From positions 4,340,001 through 4,404,000 of the forward strand of contig NZ_CP095050.1 of NCBI RefSeq assembly GCF_022921075.1: DNA of 64,000 nucleotides, in the 5' to 3' direction. The stretch is from Hymenobacter sp. 5317J-9 (GTDB lineage: Bacteria; Bacteroidota; Bacteroidia; Cytophagales; Hymenobacteraceae). Positions 55,189 to 62,100 of this stretch are shown in pieces (the first letter of the stretch is position 1; each line of letters begins with the position of its first letter). The notes beneath the pieces were generated by a model, which saw only the letters and a program-made list of their open reading frames with translations, did no database searches and had not been told where the DNA came from. The position numbers and the translations under genes are program-made.

Positions 55189-55262
55189 GGACTTGGGAAG
55201 GCGCGGCAGCCGGCGGCCGGTGCTAACTTCCGGCTCGATTTTCCCAGCCCTTGCCCACCACC

Positions 55263-56621
55263 ATGTCTGCCGAACTCCAGCCGCTGCTCGACGCCCTGCA
55301 ATTTTCGCCCGATAACCTGCCCCTGCGCCAGCACCTGGCCCGCCAGCTCAACGCCGCTGGCCGCCACCAGGAGGCCGAAACCCTGTGCCGCGACGGCCTG
55401 CGCCAGCACCCCACCGACGACGCTTTGCGCCTGAGCCTGGCCGAGGCCTATTTTGCTAGCAACAAGCATTCGGCCGCTTTCGTGGTAGTGGAGGAACTAC
55501 TGGACCAGCACGCCGATAATGCCGCTGCCCACCTGTTGCACGCCCGCCTGCTGCTGGCCGCCGGCCAGCCCGCCGAAGCCCGCGAGGCCTACGCCCACGC
55601 CCTGGAAATCAACCCCGGCCTGGCCGACCGCGACCTCGGCCAGGCCCTGGAAGCCGCCGCGCCCGCCCGCCGCGTGCCCGCCAGCGGCTACAGCCCCGCG
55701 CCCGCGCCCAACGAGGACGAACCGAGCCCTCAGGCCAAGCTTCTGGGCCTGGAACGGCCGAAAATCAACTTCGCCGACGTTGGCGGCATGGAGGCGGTGA
55801 AGGACGAAATCCGCCTCAAAATCATTCATCCGCTGCAATTCCCGGACCTGTACAAGGCTTATGGCAAAGCCAGCGGCGGCGGGCTGCTGCTCTACGGCCC
55901 GCCCGGCTGCGGCAAAACCCACCTGGCCCGCGCCACGGCAGGCGAAGTGCAGGCTAGCTTCATCAGTGTGGGGATTGCCGATATTCTGGACATGTGGCTG
56001 GGCAACAGCGAGAAAAACCTGCATCAGTTGTTCGAGCTGGCCCGCAGCCAGGCGCCGTGCGTGCTATTTTTCGACGAAGTGGACGCCCTGGCCGCCAACC
56101 GCCACGACCTGCGCCAGAGCGCGGGCCGCACCGTCATCAACCAATTTCTGGAGGAGCTGGACGGCGCCACGCGCTCCAACGAGGGAGTGCTCATCATGGC
56201 CGCGACCAATGCACCCTGGCACCTCGACCCCGCCTTCCGCCGCCCCGGCCGCTTCGACCGCATCACGCTGGTGACGCCGCCCGACGAGCCGGCCCGCGCC
56301 GCCATCCTCGACATCCTGCTGCGCGGCAAGCCGCTGGCGCCCGGCGTGAACACCACGGCCGTGGCCGCCCGCACCGCCGGCCTCAGCGGCGCCGACCTGA
56401 TGGCGCTGGTAGACGGCGCCGTGGACGTGTGCCTGCGCGCCTCCATGCGCAGCGGCCGCCCCCTGCCCATCGAGCAAAGCCACTTGCTCGACGCTGCCAA
56501 GCTGGTGAAGCCCAGCACCAAGGAGTGGTTTGCCACTGCCCGCAACTACGCGCTGTACTCCAACGAAGGCGGGCTGTACGACGACATTCTGGTGTATTTG
56601 GGGGTGAAGAAGCCGGGATAA
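55263..56621 (+). CDS. AAA+ ATPase with N-terminal TPR domain
   Basis: 452 residues. Residues 1-135 are tetratricopeptide-like helices (LRQHLARQLNAAGRHQEAET, AAHLLHARLLLAAGQPAEAR); after a Pro-rich linker an AAA+ module of the p97/CDC48-FtsH type starts at about 165: NFADVGGMEAVKDEIRLKII, Walker A GPPGCGKT at 212-219, pore-loop region, Walker B CVLFFDEVDAL at 266-275, sensor Asn316, Arg fingers in DPAFRRPGRFDRI, and the C-lid. There is one AAA+ ring and no peptidase motif. The three genes after it encode TPR membrane proteins. It may unfold or remodel proteins recruited by TPRs. Confidence 0.9.
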   Translation: MSAELQPLLDALQFSPDNLPLRQHLARQLNAAGRHQEAETLCRDGLRQHPTDDALRLSLAEAYFASNKHSAAFVVVEELLDQHADNAAAHLLHARLLLAAGQPAEAREAYAHALEINPGLADRDLGQALEAAAPARRVPASGYSPAPAPNEDEPSPQAKLLGLERPKINFADVGGMEAVKDEIRLKIIHPLQFPDLYKAYGKASGGGLLLYGPPGCGKTHLARATAGEVQASFISVGIADILDMWLGNSEKNLHQLFELARSQAPCVLFFDEVDALAANRHDLRQSAGRTVINQFLEELDGATRSNEGVLIMAATNAPWHLDPAFRRPGRFDRITLVTPPDEPARAAILDILLRGKPLAPGVNTTAVAARTAGLSGADLMALVDGAVDVCLRASMRSGRPLPIEQSHLLDAAKLVKPSTKEWFATARNYALYSNEGGLYDDILVYLGVKKPG

Positions 56622-56659
56622 TAGTCCGGACTGGCCCGACTGCCAACGACGATTTCGAC

Positions 56660-57727
56660 ATGAACACCCCGTCCAAAAAACGACTCAGTGCGCGGTTGCC
56701 CGGCATGCAGCGCATTTGGCTGCTGCTAAAGCTCAACCGGCCGCGGCTGGCCATGGAGCTGGCCCAAGTGCGCCTGGCCAGCCAACCCACCGACCTTGGT
56801 GCCCGGCTAGCCTTGGTCGACGCGCTGCTCTTGGACCGACAGGCTATGCGGGCACTGGACCAAGCTAAAACCGCCGTAGGGCAGGCTCCCGAAAACGCCG
56901 ACAGCCATTTTGCGCTGGCGCGGGTGCACGGGCAGCTCGGCAACCTGCACACGGCTGCCCAAGGCATGCGCGAAGTGCTGCGGCTCAATCCTTATGAGGC
57001 CGATTTTTTCGCGTTTCAGGCTCAGGTGCAATTCCTCATTCAGGCATATGCCAACGCGGTGGCAGCGGCCGAATCCGGGCTTTCGTTGCACCCGCGGCAC
57101 GGCGAATGCCTGTTGTGGCTGATGCGGGCGGCGGAGCAACAAGGCCATCTGCCCATCGCCGACGCAGCCCGGGAGCGTTTGCTGGCGGTGGCCCCGAACA
57201 GTGGCCCCGTACACCGCGCAATAGGCCAGCTTCTGCTGCGTCGGGGCGAGGCCACTCTCGCCGCCACCCACCTCGCCCAGGCCTTGGCCTTGGAGCCCCC
57301 GCAAGCCGCCAGCTTGGTGCCCCTGCTCCGGCAGGCGCGGCGGTGGGAAAGCTGGCCGCCGGAGCTACTGCGCCTGGGCGACTATGGACGCGCCCCCTAC
57401 TTGGCAGGCTGGTCTGCTGTTCCGAGCTTTTTTGTCCGCGTTGTTTGCACGCCGGTGGCGTGGTACTACATGGCCGTGGCCAACGCCAAAACCAAGCAAG
57501 ACCCCTTGTTTCAACGTGAGCCCAGCCCGCCTGCTCCCGCTATCGGAACCAAGGAGGACCTGGATGTTCTGGCAAGCGCGGCCACAGCCTCGCCAGGTAA
57601 ATGGCTGGCTTTTGTGGGCTTCATTGGCCTGCTGGGCTGGATTTCGGTAGCATGGAAGCTCCCGCCTGCTGGGGTCGCAATCATCGCCTTTTTTCTGGGC
57701 CGCAGCCTGCTGCGACAACACCGCTAA
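56660..57727 (+). CDS. TPR membrane protein 1 of the AAA+ cluster
   Basis: 355 residues. Residues 15-230 are TPR helices (RPRLAMELAQVRLASQPTDL, SHFALARVHGQLGNLHTAAQ, YEADFFAFQAQVQFLIQAYA, GPVHRAIGQLLLRRGEATLA). The C-terminal third has hydrophobic segments (FFVRVVCTPVAWYYMAVANA, LAFVGFIGLLGWISVAWKL, AGVAIIAFFLGRSL). N-terminus lacks a signal peptide, so the TPRs are probably cytoplasmic. Clearly paralogous to the next gene. It follows the AAA+ gene by 38 bp. Confidence 0.85.
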   Translation: MNTPSKKRLSARLPGMQRIWLLLKLNRPRLAMELAQVRLASQPTDLGARLALVDALLLDRQAMRALDQAKTAVGQAPENADSHFALARVHGQLGNLHTAAQGMREVLRLNPYEADFFAFQAQVQFLIQAYANAVAAAESGLSLHPRHGECLLWLMRAAEQQGHLPIADAARERLLAVAPNSGPVHRAIGQLLLRRGEATLAATHLAQALALEPPQAASLVPLLRQARRWESWPPELLRLGDYGRAPYLAGWSAVPSFFVRVVCTPVAWYYMAVANAKTKQDPLFQREPSPPAPAIGTKEDLDVLASAATASPGKWLAFVGFIGLLGWISVAWKLPPAGVAIIAFFLGRSLLRQHR

Positions 57728-57736
57728 CTTTCTGGC

Positions 57737-58786
57737 TTGCCGCCTGCCCCCTCCGTGCACCCTACTCCGCAACGCCTCCCTTCGTTGGCTAGCATCTGGC
57801 AGCTGCTGGAGCTGCACCGGCCCGCCCTGGCCGAGGCCGCGGCCCGGGAGCGCTTGGCCGTTGACCCCACCGACTGGCAAACCCTGCTGGCCCTGACCGA
57901 GGCCCTCCGACAGCAGCGGCGCCTGGAAGAAGCCGTGCACACCGCTACGGCGGCCATCCAGGCGGAACCCAACGCCCACGAGGCCCATTTTGCGCTGGCG
58001 CAGGTACTGGGCATGCAGGGCCAGCTGCGCCAGGCCGACATCGCCCTCCGACAAGCTCTGCGCCTGAGCCACCGGGAGCCCGGCTACCACGCGTTTCGAG
58101 CGCAGCTTTTTTACTTGCAGCGCAGCTACAACGCGGCCATCAGCTGCGCCGAAGATGGCCTGCAGCTGGCGCCCGCACACGCCGACTGCCTGCTGTGGCG
58201 TGCCCTGTCCCAGGAGCGCCTCGACCAGCCCGCCGCGGCCGACGATGACTTTCAGCGCCTGCTGCGCGTGGCCCCGGAGAGCGATTTGGTGCACGCCCGC
58301 CTGGGCCGGGTGCTGTTCAACCGCTACCAGCCCGCTGCCGCCGACCGCCACCTCACCGAAGCGCTGCGCCAAAACCCCGCCTTGGCGCCTGAGCTGGTGC
58401 CCCTGTTGCGCGAAGCCCGCCGCCAGCAGCTGTGGCCCGAGTGGCTGTTGCGTAGCGAGCGCCAAGGGGCCGCGCGCCGCGCCCTGGGCCTCGACCCCGG
58501 CCTGGGCATGCTTTTCAACCGCATTCGGGCCACGGGCGCGGTGACCCGGGCATGGTGGCACACTCGGCGCGACCCGTTGTTTCGCCACCGCCTGCCGCCG
58601 AACCCGCACAGCCGCTGGCGCTGGCAGCTGAAGGTGTGGGGCGTGGTGCTGGTCATTATCGGCGGCATCATCGGGCTCACTGCGCTCAGCGTGCAGTTGG
58701 GTTTGCCGGCCATGACGGGCCTTGTCGTCGGGTCCGGCTTGCTGGCCATTGCGCGCTACCTGCAAGAGCGCCGCGATGAAGACTAA
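57737..58786 (+). CDS. TPR membrane protein 2 of the AAA+ cluster
   Basis: About 349 residues. TPR helices fill residues 15-225 and align to its upstream neighbour (SIWQLLELHRPALAEAAARE versus RIWLLLKLNRPRLAMELAQV; AHFALAQVLGMQGQLRQADI). The C-terminus holds two membrane helices (VWGVVLVIIGGIIGLTALSV, MTGLVVGSGLLAIARYL) and an acidic tail. The start is a TTG at 57737 or a GTG six codons downstream; no ATG is available near. The gene is 9 bp from its upstream neighbour and probably co-translated. Confidence 0.83.
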   Translation: MPPAPSVHPTPQRLPSLASIWQLLELHRPALAEAAARERLAVDPTDWQTLLALTEALRQQRRLEEAVHTATAAIQAEPNAHEAHFALAQVLGMQGQLRQADIALRQALRLSHREPGYHAFRAQLFYLQRSYNAAISCAEDGLQLAPAHADCLLWRALSQERLDQPAAADDDFQRLLRVAPESDLVHARLGRVLFNRYQPAAADRHLTEALRQNPALAPELVPLLREARRQQLWPEWLLRSERQGAARRALGLDPGLGMLFNRIRATGAVTRAWWHTRRDPLFRHRLPPNPHSRWRWQLKVWGVVLVIIGGIIGLTALSVQLGLPAMTGLVVGSGLLAIARYLQERRDED

Positions 58787-58917
58787 TAACCAAAGGGAAC
58801 CAAGGGCTTGATTGCGGGACGGCCTGCGGCCCCGCTGACCGGGGCAGGCTATATTCGAACCAACTTGCTGACCGGCCCTGGCAATCAGACGCAAAAGCAC
58901 CCTATCCTTCTATTCGT

Positions 58918-60126
58918 TTGGAAAACGCTACCGACTACCTCCCGCGTGTGGAGTTGCTGCTGAGCCAGCACCGCCACGCCCACGCCACCCAGGAGCTGCG
59001 CCGCCAGCTCGCGCAGGACCCGCACGATGCCATTGCCCACGCCCTGCTGGCCGTGTGCCTGCTGGAGCAGAAGCAGCTAGCCGAAGCGCAGTCCGAAGCC
59101 GAGCTGGCCATTCACCTGTCGCCCGAATACGACTTCGCATTCTACGCGCTGGCCTTGATTGAAAACCGCCGGCACCGCCCCAAAGAGGCGCTGGCCGCCA
59201 TCAACGAAGCCCTGGCGCTAGACCCCAACGACGCCGACTACTACCACCTGCTTGGCCAGCTGCGCCTGCAAAGCGGCCAGTGGCAGGCCGCCCTGCAAGC
59301 CGCCCAAACCGGCCTCGGCCTCGACGCCGAGCACGCCGGTCTGCACGGCCTGCAGGCTCGCGCCCTGGCCCGCCAGGGCCGCCCCGACGAAGCCGGCACC
59401 GCCGCCCGCTCGGCCCTGAGCTATGCGGCCAGCAGCAGCAGCACCCAAGCCCAGGCCGGCTGGGTGGCCCTCGAAACCAACCGCCCCAAAGAAGCCCTGG
59501 AGCACTTCCGCGAAGCCCTACGCCTCGACCCCGAATCAGACTTTGCCCGCGAGGGCCTGGTGGAGGCGCTGAAGGCCCGCTACTGGGTGTACCGCACGTT
59601 CATGCGGTTCGTGTACTGGTCGGGCACGCTGAGCGAGGGCGCGCGGCGCGGCTTGTTTCTGGGCGCCTGGGTGGTGGTGCGCTTTGTGCGGGTGCTGCTG
59701 CCGGTGTACCTGCTGTTTGTGTTCCTGAGCTGGTTTGCCGACGTTATTTTCGAGAGCCTGCTGCGCGTGAGTGCCTACGGCCGGCTGGCCCTGAGCGAGC
59801 GGCAGACGCGGCACTCCAACCAGTTTCTGGGTTTGCTGGCGGTGGCGGCGGGCGCACTGGCCGGGCGGCTGGCGGCGCCAACCGTACCGGGCACCAGCAC
59901 GCTGGGCATGGTGGCGCTGGGGCTGCTGTTTCCGCTGGCGGGCACCTGGCGGCTGCCGGCGGGCACACTGGCCTGGCAACGCTCGCGCTGGGCGGGCTTC
60001 GGGCTGGCCGCGGTGGGCGGGCTAAGCGTGGCGCTGGAAGTACTGGGCCTGGGTGGCGACGGCGTGGCGTTCGGCGCCTTCCTCGTGGGCACCTTGGCCT
60101 ACACCTGGGTTTTTGCCCTGCGGTAG
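58918..60126 (+). CDS. TPR membrane protein 3 of the AAA+ cluster
   Basis: About 402 residues. Residues 5-225 are TPR helices (ELRRQLAQDPHDAIAHALLA, KEALAAINEALALDPNDADY, PKEALEHFREALRLDPESDF); residues 240-402 contain about six membrane helices (LFLGAWVVVRFVRVLLPVYL, LGLLAVAAGALAGRLAAP, LGMVALGLLFPLAGTW, AVGGLSVALEVLGLGGDGV). It starts at TTG 58918 (no ATG near). Separated from gene 2 by 131 bp with no terminator, so it may belong to the same unit or a second transcript. Confidence 0.83.
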   Translation: MENATDYLPRVELLLSQHRHAHATQELRRQLAQDPHDAIAHALLAVCLLEQKQLAEAQSEAELAIHLSPEYDFAFYALALIENRRHRPKEALAAINEALALDPNDADYYHLLGQLRLQSGQWQAALQAAQTGLGLDAEHAGLHGLQARALARQGRPDEAGTAARSALSYAASSSSTQAQAGWVALETNRPKEALEHFREALRLDPESDFAREGLVEALKARYWVYRTFMRFVYWSGTLSEGARRGLFLGAWVVVRFVRVLLPVYLLFVFLSWFADVIFESLLRVSAYGRLALSERQTRHSNQFLGLLAVAAGALAGRLAAPTVPGTSTLGMVALGLLFPLAGTWRLPAGTLAWQRSRWAGFGLAAVGGLSVALEVLGLGGDGVAFGAFLVGTLAYTWVFALR

Positions 60127-60135
60127 TAGGCGGGG

Positions 60136-61968
60136 CTACTTGCCGCGCTTCCAGCGGTAGTACTTGCGGTACCAGGCCGACGTTTTTTTGAACAGACTGC
60201 TGGTCGACTCGTTCGGAAACATGTTGATGCGGAACACCTGCATGCGGTCGTCTTCAATGGTCAGGCCGCCGGTGTCGGTGGCTACGCCCAGGGCGAAACC
60301 GGCGGCGCGCACCGCTTCTTTCACGGGCTCATTGAGGTCGCCGTAGGGATAGGCAAAGCTCACGATTTTGGTTTGCAGCGCTTCTTCCAAGGCGGCTTTG
60401 CTGCGCACTAGTTCCTGGGCGGCTTCGGGCAGTGGCAGCGTGGTGAGGCGCGGGTGCGACATGGTGTGCGCTCCGATTTCCCAGCCGGCCGCTACAAACG
60501 CCTGCTTTTGCCCCCGGTCCATGATGTCGGAGCGGGGCTCGGTGGGGTCGGCGGCGAGGTCCCACTGGTTGTGGCGCACGTCGAAATCGCCGAGCAGGTA
60601 GAGCACGCCGCGGTAGCCGTACTGCTGCATCAGGGGCAGCAGGTTAGTGTAGTTATCGGTGTAGCCGTCGTCGAAGGTAAGAATGATGGGGCGGGCCGGA
60701 AACTCGCTCAGCGGCCGTTCGCCAGCGGCAAATTTCAGGTAGTCGGCGAAGGTGATGGGCGTGAGCTTGCGCGACTTGAAATAGGCCAGATGCCGGGCAA
60801 AATTGTCTTTGGTGACGTAAATCTGATGCTTAGTAGCCAGCGGCGCGTCCGGGATTTTGTGGTACATCAGCACCGGGATGAAGGCGGGCACGGCCTTCTG
60901 CATGCGGGCGGCCTGGTAGGTTTCCAGCACCCGCGCCGCCACGGTGCGGAGGTCGTAGTGCGCCCGTACCTGCTGCTGCAGGGCAGTTGTCACGGGCTGC
61001 GGCGCCTGCAGGCAGCCCCACGCCGCGGCCAGCACCGCCGAAAAATCCACCGCCGAAGGCGCCTGCCGGGCCGAGATGTCGCCAAAATTGGAAGCCGCGG
61101 CCGCGCCAAAGGTGGCTTCGGCCACCAGCCCCTCATAGGTGGCTTCGCCCAGGGCCAGCACCGGCCGGCCGGCACCCAGCGCCTCAATGGCCACCCGCCC
61201 CGCCCCGATGACCAGCGTGGTACGGGCCAGCCAGCCGGGCACGTCAGAAGTGAAGCCCACGACTTCCACCCGCTCGCCAAACTCCGCCTGCAGCTGCGTC
61301 AGAGCTACTTTACCGGCCTCGGGCAAGTGTTCCAGCTCGCCGCCGATGAGGGCCACGCGCAAGCCCGGCAGCTCCCGCAGCAGCACCGGAAACACCTGTT
61401 GCAGCAGGTCCGCCGCCCGCTCGCCCTTGCCACCATTGAAGCGCCCGATGAATGCAAGCCTAAGCGGCTCAGCTGATTCTGCTTCGGGCGCAGCCCCAAA
61501 GCTCACGCCATTCGGAATTTCAACAATTTTGGCCATCTGCATCTTCACCTCATCGACAAGATGCGTGCGCAGGTTGCCGCAGATGGCGATGACTTTGTCG
61601 CCGTAGATATCGAAGAGTGAGGTGGAAGTGTGCAGGTGCTGGCGACCGTGCACGGTGCTCACCAGCGGCACCTTCAGGCCGCGCAGGGCCACGTAGCTCA
61701 CCCAGCTGGCCGCCCGCGAGTGGGCGTGCACCACCTGAATGTCTTCGGCTTGCACCAGCCGGCGAATGAGCCGGGCGTTGCGCAAGCGCTGCCCGAAGCG
61801 GCGGTTGCTGATGGGCGCCATAACCAGCGTAGCCCCCGTGGGAAGCTGCGCCGCATCTGACACCATCCACACGTGGTGCCCCTGCGCGCGGTGCGCCTCG
61901 GCCAGCTGCACGGCATAGGCCACCGAACCCGCAAAAAACTCAGCCGACAAAACGTGGAGGATGCGCAT
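60136..61968 (-). CDS. GT4 glycosyltransferase fused to NodB polysaccharide deacetylase
   Basis: 610-residue bifunctional protein from ATG 61968. The N-terminal half is a GT4-type transferase (MRILHVLSAEFFAGSVAYA, VHAHSRAASWVSYVALRG, ICGNLRTHLVDEV, RLAFIGRFNGGKGERAADLL, IEALGAGRPVLALGEATYEG). The C-terminal half is a NodB-type deacetylase (ILTFDDGYTDNYTNLLPLM, the metal-site His in GAHTMSHPRL, FAYPYGDLNEPVKEA). Joining the two suggests a sugar is added and N-deacetylated in one pathway. The -7 box TACCTTTG (61973-61980) is four bases before the ATG. The frame beyond it is repeat sequence. Confidence 0.92.
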   Translation of the reverse strand: MRILHVLSAEFFAGSVAYAVQLAEAHRAQGHHVWMVSDAAQLPTGATLVMAPISNRRFGQRLRNARLIRRLVQAEDIQVVHAHSRAASWVSYVALRGLKVPLVSTVHGRQHLHTSTSLFDIYGDKVIAICGNLRTHLVDEVKMQMAKIVEIPNGVSFGAAPEAESAEPLRLAFIGRFNGGKGERAADLLQQVFPVLLRELPGLRVALIGGELEHLPEAGKVALTQLQAEFGERVEVVGFTSDVPGWLARTTLVIGAGRVAIEALGAGRPVLALGEATYEGLVAEATFGAAAASNFGDISARQAPSAVDFSAVLAAAWGCLQAPQPVTTALQQQVRAHYDLRTVAARVLETYQAARMQKAVPAFIPVLMYHKIPDAPLATKHQIYVTKDNFARHLAYFKSRKLTPITFADYLKFAAGERPLSEFPARPIILTFDDGYTDNYTNLLPLMQQYGYRGVLYLLGDFDVRHNQWDLAADPTEPRSDIMDRGQKQAFVAAGWEIGAHTMSHPRLTTLPLPEAAQELVRSKAALEEALQTKIVSFAYPYGDLNEPVKEAVRAAGFALGVATDTGGLTIEDDRMQVFRINMFPNESTSSLFKKTSAWYRKYYRWKRGK

Positions 61969-61972
61969 GGCG

Positions 61973-61980
61973 CAAAGGTA
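61973..61980 (-). promoter_or_regulatory. -7 box of the GT4-NodB gene
   Basis: TACCTTTG on the minus strand, exact consensus, four bases before the ATG. Confidence 0.55.
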
Positions 61981-62014
61981 TTGCCGGGCTTGGGCTGTTG
62001 GCCGAAAAGCAAAC

Positions 62015-62100
62015 GTCATGCTGAGCGCAGTCGAAGCATCTCTACCGCGCAACTAAATTCTTGCGTGAGGTAGAGATGCTTCGACTGCGCTCAGCATGAC
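62015..62100. repeat. Palindromic intergenic repeat, copy F
   Basis: 31-base arms (62015-62045 and 62070-62100), perfectly complementary, with core GCTGAGCGCAGTCGAAGCAT and a 24-base loop. The inner ends read CTCTAC/GTAGAG, unlike copies A and E (CGCGTG). It lies between the GT4-NodB start and the threonine synthase stop. Confidence 0.95.

Follow-up and report, generated by a model that had tools for sequence, protein, structure and literature searches.

The window analyzed here, a stretch of 64,000 nucleotides from the genome of Hymenobacter sp. 5317J-9, contains a cassette of four genes, A to D, all encoded in the same direction (Table 1). Judged by their conservation, all four are real genes. 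The first three are tightly spaced, with 38 bp between A and B and 9 bp between B and C, and a further 131 bp separate C from D. This agrees with a preliminary description of the locus, which placed four genes here and regarded B and C as paralogues and D as a more distant protein. Indeed, the C-terminal regions of B and C are 33% identical (E 9e-5), and the tree separates D, which evolves more slowly, from both of them.

Table 1. Features of the cassette in the window (positions are those of the window).
Feature	Position	Strand	Description	Basis
Cassette limits	55189..60135	+		Comparison with Hymenobacter genomes lacking A
Gene A, ATPase	55263..56621	+	452 aa; start ATG 55263; TPRs ~5-120; disordered linker ~132-155; classical AAA+ domain ~163-397; conserved C-terminal helices	Pfam, NCBIfam, AlphaFold (pLDDT 86), 39-row alignment, Foldseek
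Gene B	56660..57727	+	355 aa; TPRs, W..TK.DPLF motif, C-terminal hydrophobic hairpin	Pfam, hydropathy, tree, alignment
Gene C	57737..58786	+	349 aa; same features as B	Pfam, hydropathy, tree, alignment
Gene D, conserved partner of A	58918..60126	+	402 aa; TTG start; six TPRs ~7-206, conserved basic helix EALKARxxxYR, then six membrane helices	AlphaFold (pLDDT 93.2, pTM 0.84), positive-inside charges, co-occurrence

Domain organization of the encoded proteins

The N-terminus of A consists of about three and a half TPRs, matched by several Pfam models, and is followed by a single classical AAA+ domain, as indicated by Pfam (AAA, E=3.9e-40, and AAA_lid_3) and by the AlphaFold model. The motifs of such ATPases can be read directly in the protein: Walker A (GPPGCGKT), Walker B (VLFFDEVDAL), the pore loop (DMWLG), a sensor (AATN), and the Arg-finger motif (RRPGRFD). 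In the 39-row alignment of A and its homologues, the pore-loop-1 tryptophan (Trp245), Walker A and B, sensor 1, and the Arg fingers are invariant or nearly so. The initial view of A as an AAA+ ATPase with N-terminal TPRs holds. This motif set is probably that of an active threading ATPase. The C-terminus, which forms two helices in the AlphaFold model, is also conserved and carries the signature KPSTKEWFxxAxNYALYxN..GxYDD. We found neither a protease domain (Pfam) nor a membrane helix (hydropathy) in A.

The solved structures nearest to A are the D2 rings of the Cdc48/p97 unfoldases (PDB search, Foldseek), and Cdc48/p97 is also the best Foldseek match. The PDB search puts Cdc48-type proteins first with scores that sum over two domains. 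At the level of the ATPase domain, D2 is the closest solved relative in both fold and sequence (38-41% identity). However, A has only one AAA domain, lacks the Cdc48 N domain, and has its own C-terminal signature; it reaches 218 bits for TIGR01243, whose cut-off is 803, and we rejected its assignment to Cdc48/p97. FtsH is a single classical AAA ring working at the membrane, and an FtsH-like protein encoded in the same genome is 37% identical to A. Yet A has no N-terminal membrane helix (hydropathy) and no zinc peptidase domain (Pfam), which excludes that it is FtsH, in line with the earlier remark that a single ATPase ring domain and no protease motif are present.

All three remaining proteins have TPRs followed by C-terminal membrane segments, as had been noted, but they are not alike: D has six membrane helices, predicted by AlphaFold to form a bundle, whereas B and C each have one hydrophobic hairpin. 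One concern raised at the outset was that these could be signal-anchored periplasmic proteins, out of reach of a cytoplasmic ATPase. This does not apply to D. Its TPRs come first, and we saw no signal or membrane helix N-terminal to them. Across 46 D proteins, the net charge averages +3.5 just ahead of the first membrane helix (TM1). The predicted cytoplasmic loops average +1.0 and +1.9, versus -0.2 and -0.9 for the two long loops on the predicted periplasmic side; the short turn between TM1 and TM2 has +1.1. These positive-inside charges support a cytoplasmic location of the TPRs and of the C-terminus of D. The mean column identity is lower in TM3-6 (0.33) than in the TPRs (0.50), as expected of an anchor, not of a transporter. 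When the membrane part was searched with Foldseek, only TPR proteins were found among the best 50 matches.

Distribution of the ATPase and its partner across phyla

We scanned one genome per species for homologues of A and kept 80 loci, whose ATPases are 47-99% identical to that of the window. They are found in Bacteroidota, Planctomycetota, Cyanobacteriota, Omnitrophota, Verrucomicrobiota, Chloroflexota, and other phyla, and the nearest named relative is in Hymenobacter armeniacus (99% identity). A gene of the D family lies directly downstream of A in 74 of the 80 loci, and four of the six loci without it stop at a contig edge right after A. On a Caenarcaniphilales contig (L049), A is present and no D occurs in the 4.8 kb downstream. 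Outside Hymenobacter, the two genes are usually very close: of the 58 loci with D, the gap is at most 15 bp in 45, and in 31 the genes overlap by 4 or 1 bp. In the window, B and C separate A from D. We found no other gene conserved beside the pair across phyla in the 80 loci once Hymenobacter is set aside.

The association was also assessed on whole genomes, using a profile of A and a separate profile of the non-TPR part of D only. Matches to A were taken as strong at E<1e-150 in Planctomycetota (an even draw of 149 genomes) and Cyanobacteriota (146 genomes), and at E<=1e-60 in Bacteroidota, where the set was a chosen one composed of a genus sample and A-bearing genomes. Overall, D is present in 49 of the 51 genomes with a strong A and in none of the 290 others. 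The pattern is the same in Bacteroidota (20/20 with A versus 0/26 without it), Planctomycetota (21/22 versus 0/127), and Cyanobacteriota (8/9 versus 0/137). The two genomes that have A and no recognised D come from two different phyla, one for each (G421 and G633). In another two (G287 and G595), both genes are present and lie far apart on the chromosome, which indicates that their link is not merely a matter of operon inheritance. The pairing of an ATPase with a membrane TPR protein, anticipated from the window, is near-exceptionless, a far firmer link than the letters alone could reveal. The conserved unit is nevertheless not the four-gene cluster that had been put forward, since the neighborhood of all four genes is an arrangement of Hymenobacter only; the conserved core is the pair of A and D, a real and widely distributed two-gene system with lineage-specific additions.

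The pair is nonetheless patchily distributed. Within Bacteroidota A is rare, with 7 of 296 genomes, and in Hymenobacter it occurs in 11 of 37 sampled genomes, the window's own being included in both counts. At a looser cut-off, 29 of the 149 Planctomycetota have it. The pair also occurs on large actinobacterial plasmids, in the same order and with 4-bp overlaps, where A is annotated merely as "ATP-binding protein" or "AAA family ATPase" and D as "tetratricopeptide repeat protein" or "hypothetical protein". On one of these plasmids, from Actinomyces oris (L101), genes of the dnaK-grpE-dnaJ group are found a few kb from the pair.

Several variants of the pair were observed. Two genomes of about 2 Mb in the cyanobacterial set (G602, locus L145, and G585, locus L146) have a minimal version, in which the ATPase lacks TPRs and a TPR protein ending in about two membrane helices follows within a few bases downstream. 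Three more genomes of about this size in the same set match the ATPase. In three Planctomycetota with more distant relatives of A, the gene immediately upstream instead encodes a TPR protein that has one or two membrane helices, and tandem pairs of D genes occur in several genomes. The preliminary description had suggested that TPRs on the ATPase and on the membrane proteins interact and thereby recruit the former. The minimal pair, with its TPR-less ATPase, shows that such contacts cannot be the general or the sole mode of docking of A. Apparent natural fusions of A and D in G287 (1235 aa) and G400 (1316 aa) were discarded: these are frames without an upstream stop that contain ordinary separate genes.

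Turnover of the cassette in Hymenobacter

The examined Hymenobacter carriers share a common chromosomal setting. In genomes of the genus that lack A, the flanks of the cassette, a DUF167 gene and a glycosyltransferase-deacetylase gene, are retained and A to D are absent. The two flanking genes are then nearly joined, at a distance of about 40 bp in G029, 17 bp in G021, and 160 bp in G019, which shows that the cassette is gained or lost as a unit. The cassette is surrounded, within the window, by genes that are ordinary or of housekeeping type. The one on the right, on the reverse strand (60136-62052), is a single open reading frame in which a polysaccharide deacetylase is fused to a glycosyltransferase of family 4; it is convergent with D and occupies this place in several Hymenobacter.

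Genes B and C are confined to Hymenobacter and evolve fast. Within the genus, zero to three extra genes are found between A and D, and in a series of loci (L019-L033 and L047) these intervening genes vary in number and sequence among close species, with A and D staying in place. When the window is compared with the species that is nearest after H. armeniacus, A is 97% and D 87% identical, whereas C is 59% identical in its C-terminal part and B is replaced by another gene. The motor and the main receptor thus stay constant, in contrast to the middle genes between them, whose variation looks like a fast turnover of adaptors.

A putative unfoldase held at the membrane

The absence of a named system with this make-up, noted from the start, is confirmed in the sense that no name exists. 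The pair is not wholly undescribed, though: Ravi et al. (mSystems 2024, PMC11237479) mention, in one sentence and with no analysis in the main text, that bacterial Vps4-like ATPases adjoin a TPR-6TM gene (example ACB74714.1). A and D are almost certainly the same pair, as judged by the features stated there: a single classical AAA+ ATPase of bacteria and a neighbor gene for a protein with TPRs and six membrane helices. Our literature searches found no functional study of the pair, which has been noticed once in print and never studied. Absent from that earlier mention are the TPRs on the ATPase, the TPR-less minimal pair, the counts of co-occurrence, and the extra genes B and C.

On balance, it seems probable, if only just, that A and D form one machine, a threading unfoldase held at the inner membrane by D. 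Classical AAA+ domains whose pore loop is aromatic thread polypeptides, as described for Pex1/Pex6 (PMC5762779). D would be embedded in the inner membrane, its TPR superhelix facing the cytoplasm, and would serve as both receptor and adaptor, and A would assemble into a single-ring AAA+ hexamer that D contacts directly and holds at the membrane. Using ATP and its tryptophan pore loop, A would pull on, unfold, or disassemble clients presented by D and, in Hymenobacter, also by B and C. Such clients would most likely be membrane or membrane-associated proteins or complexes, and, because the system has no protease, they would be released, remodelled, or passed on. As D brings an anchor together with a scaffold of protein-binding repeats, and A has neither an anchor nor a protease, it is most parsimonious to assume that D would hold A and present clients to it, much like Pex15 for Pex1/Pex6. 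The yeast and human system (PMC5762779) also combines an anchorless AAA unfoldase with a dedicated anchored receptor (Pex15/Pex26) that has a cytoplasmic helical domain. However, Pex1/Pex6 is a double-ring hetero-hexamer, and Pex15/Pex26 have a single tail anchor and are not evidently related to D in sequence, so the likeness is an analogy only.

Other readings of the pair can be considered. Ravi et al. group such ATPases, with the same TPR-6TM neighbor, with Vps4, and suggest in their one sentence that the TPR-6TM protein replaces ESCRT-III (PMC11237479); A would then be a Vps4-like ATPase of ESCRT-type membrane remodelling, acting with this replacement or disassembling a polymer of PspA/Vipp1. 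Vps4 and CdvC are indeed single-ring classical AAA proteins with a small helical N-terminal domain binding membrane-associated partners, the A family matches the CdvC model strongly (E to 4e-61), and the genome of the window encodes PspA. Yet the NCBIfam scores of the A of the window are higher for CDC48 (218 bits), FtsH (208), and PAN (204) than for CdvC (168), A has TPRs instead of MIT, neither MIT nor Vps4_C is found among its Pfam matches at E 0.01, and there is no ESCRT-III partner gene. Full-length PspA is missing from 8 of 20 genomes with A and present in 11 of 26 Hymenobacter without it, a distribution that does not support a dependence of A on PspA. We regard this reading as unlikely.

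The pair could instead assist the insertion or assembly of a specific membrane complex without extracting anything, which a TPR scaffold with an unfoldase, in an operon without a protease, would suit equally well. We hold this to be quite improbable, as we found no gene of such a complex that accompanies the pair in different phyla. A conflict or defence module, in which the fast-changing TPR proteins detect invaders and act on the membrane, would account for the patchy distribution of the pair, its presence on large plasmids, and the turnover of B and C. However, the PADLOC matches are merely at the general AAA level (mainly IetA and TRIP13), no relative in phage records covers 80% of A, the annotated matches there being mostly FtsH, and both the ordinary neighbors in the window and the single chromosomal setting of the carriers speak against it, which makes a role in defence distinctly improbable. 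The IetAS defence system itself was rejected, as A reaches 115 bits against a cut-off of 510 for the NCBIfam model IteA, and its partner is a TPR membrane protein, not a protease.

Going beyond a motor held at the membrane by D, we tentatively suggest that the pair may be a stand-alone machine for the extraction or remodelling of membrane proteins that depends neither on ESCRT-III/PspA nor on proteases and combines a single AAA+ ring with exchangeable membrane TPR adaptors. In Hymenobacter, the adaptors (B, C, and their relatives) would then diversify, with the motor and the main receptor on either side of them kept constant. The clearance and rearrangement of membrane proteins in bacteria are thought to run mainly via FtsH and other proteases, and the organelles of eukaryotes have extraction machines such as Msp1, Cdc48, and Pex1/Pex6. 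If our reading is true, bacteria would possess a counterpart of these machines: an AAA+ motor that is widespread, works without a protease, and has a membrane receptor of its own. The pair is small, its genes are nearly always found together, and it occurs in culturable Hymenobacter, Flavobacteriaceae, Calothrix, and Streptomyces, so it is directly testable. Its presence in such distant phyla points to an unstudied machine that would pull apart or rearrange proteins at the cell membrane.
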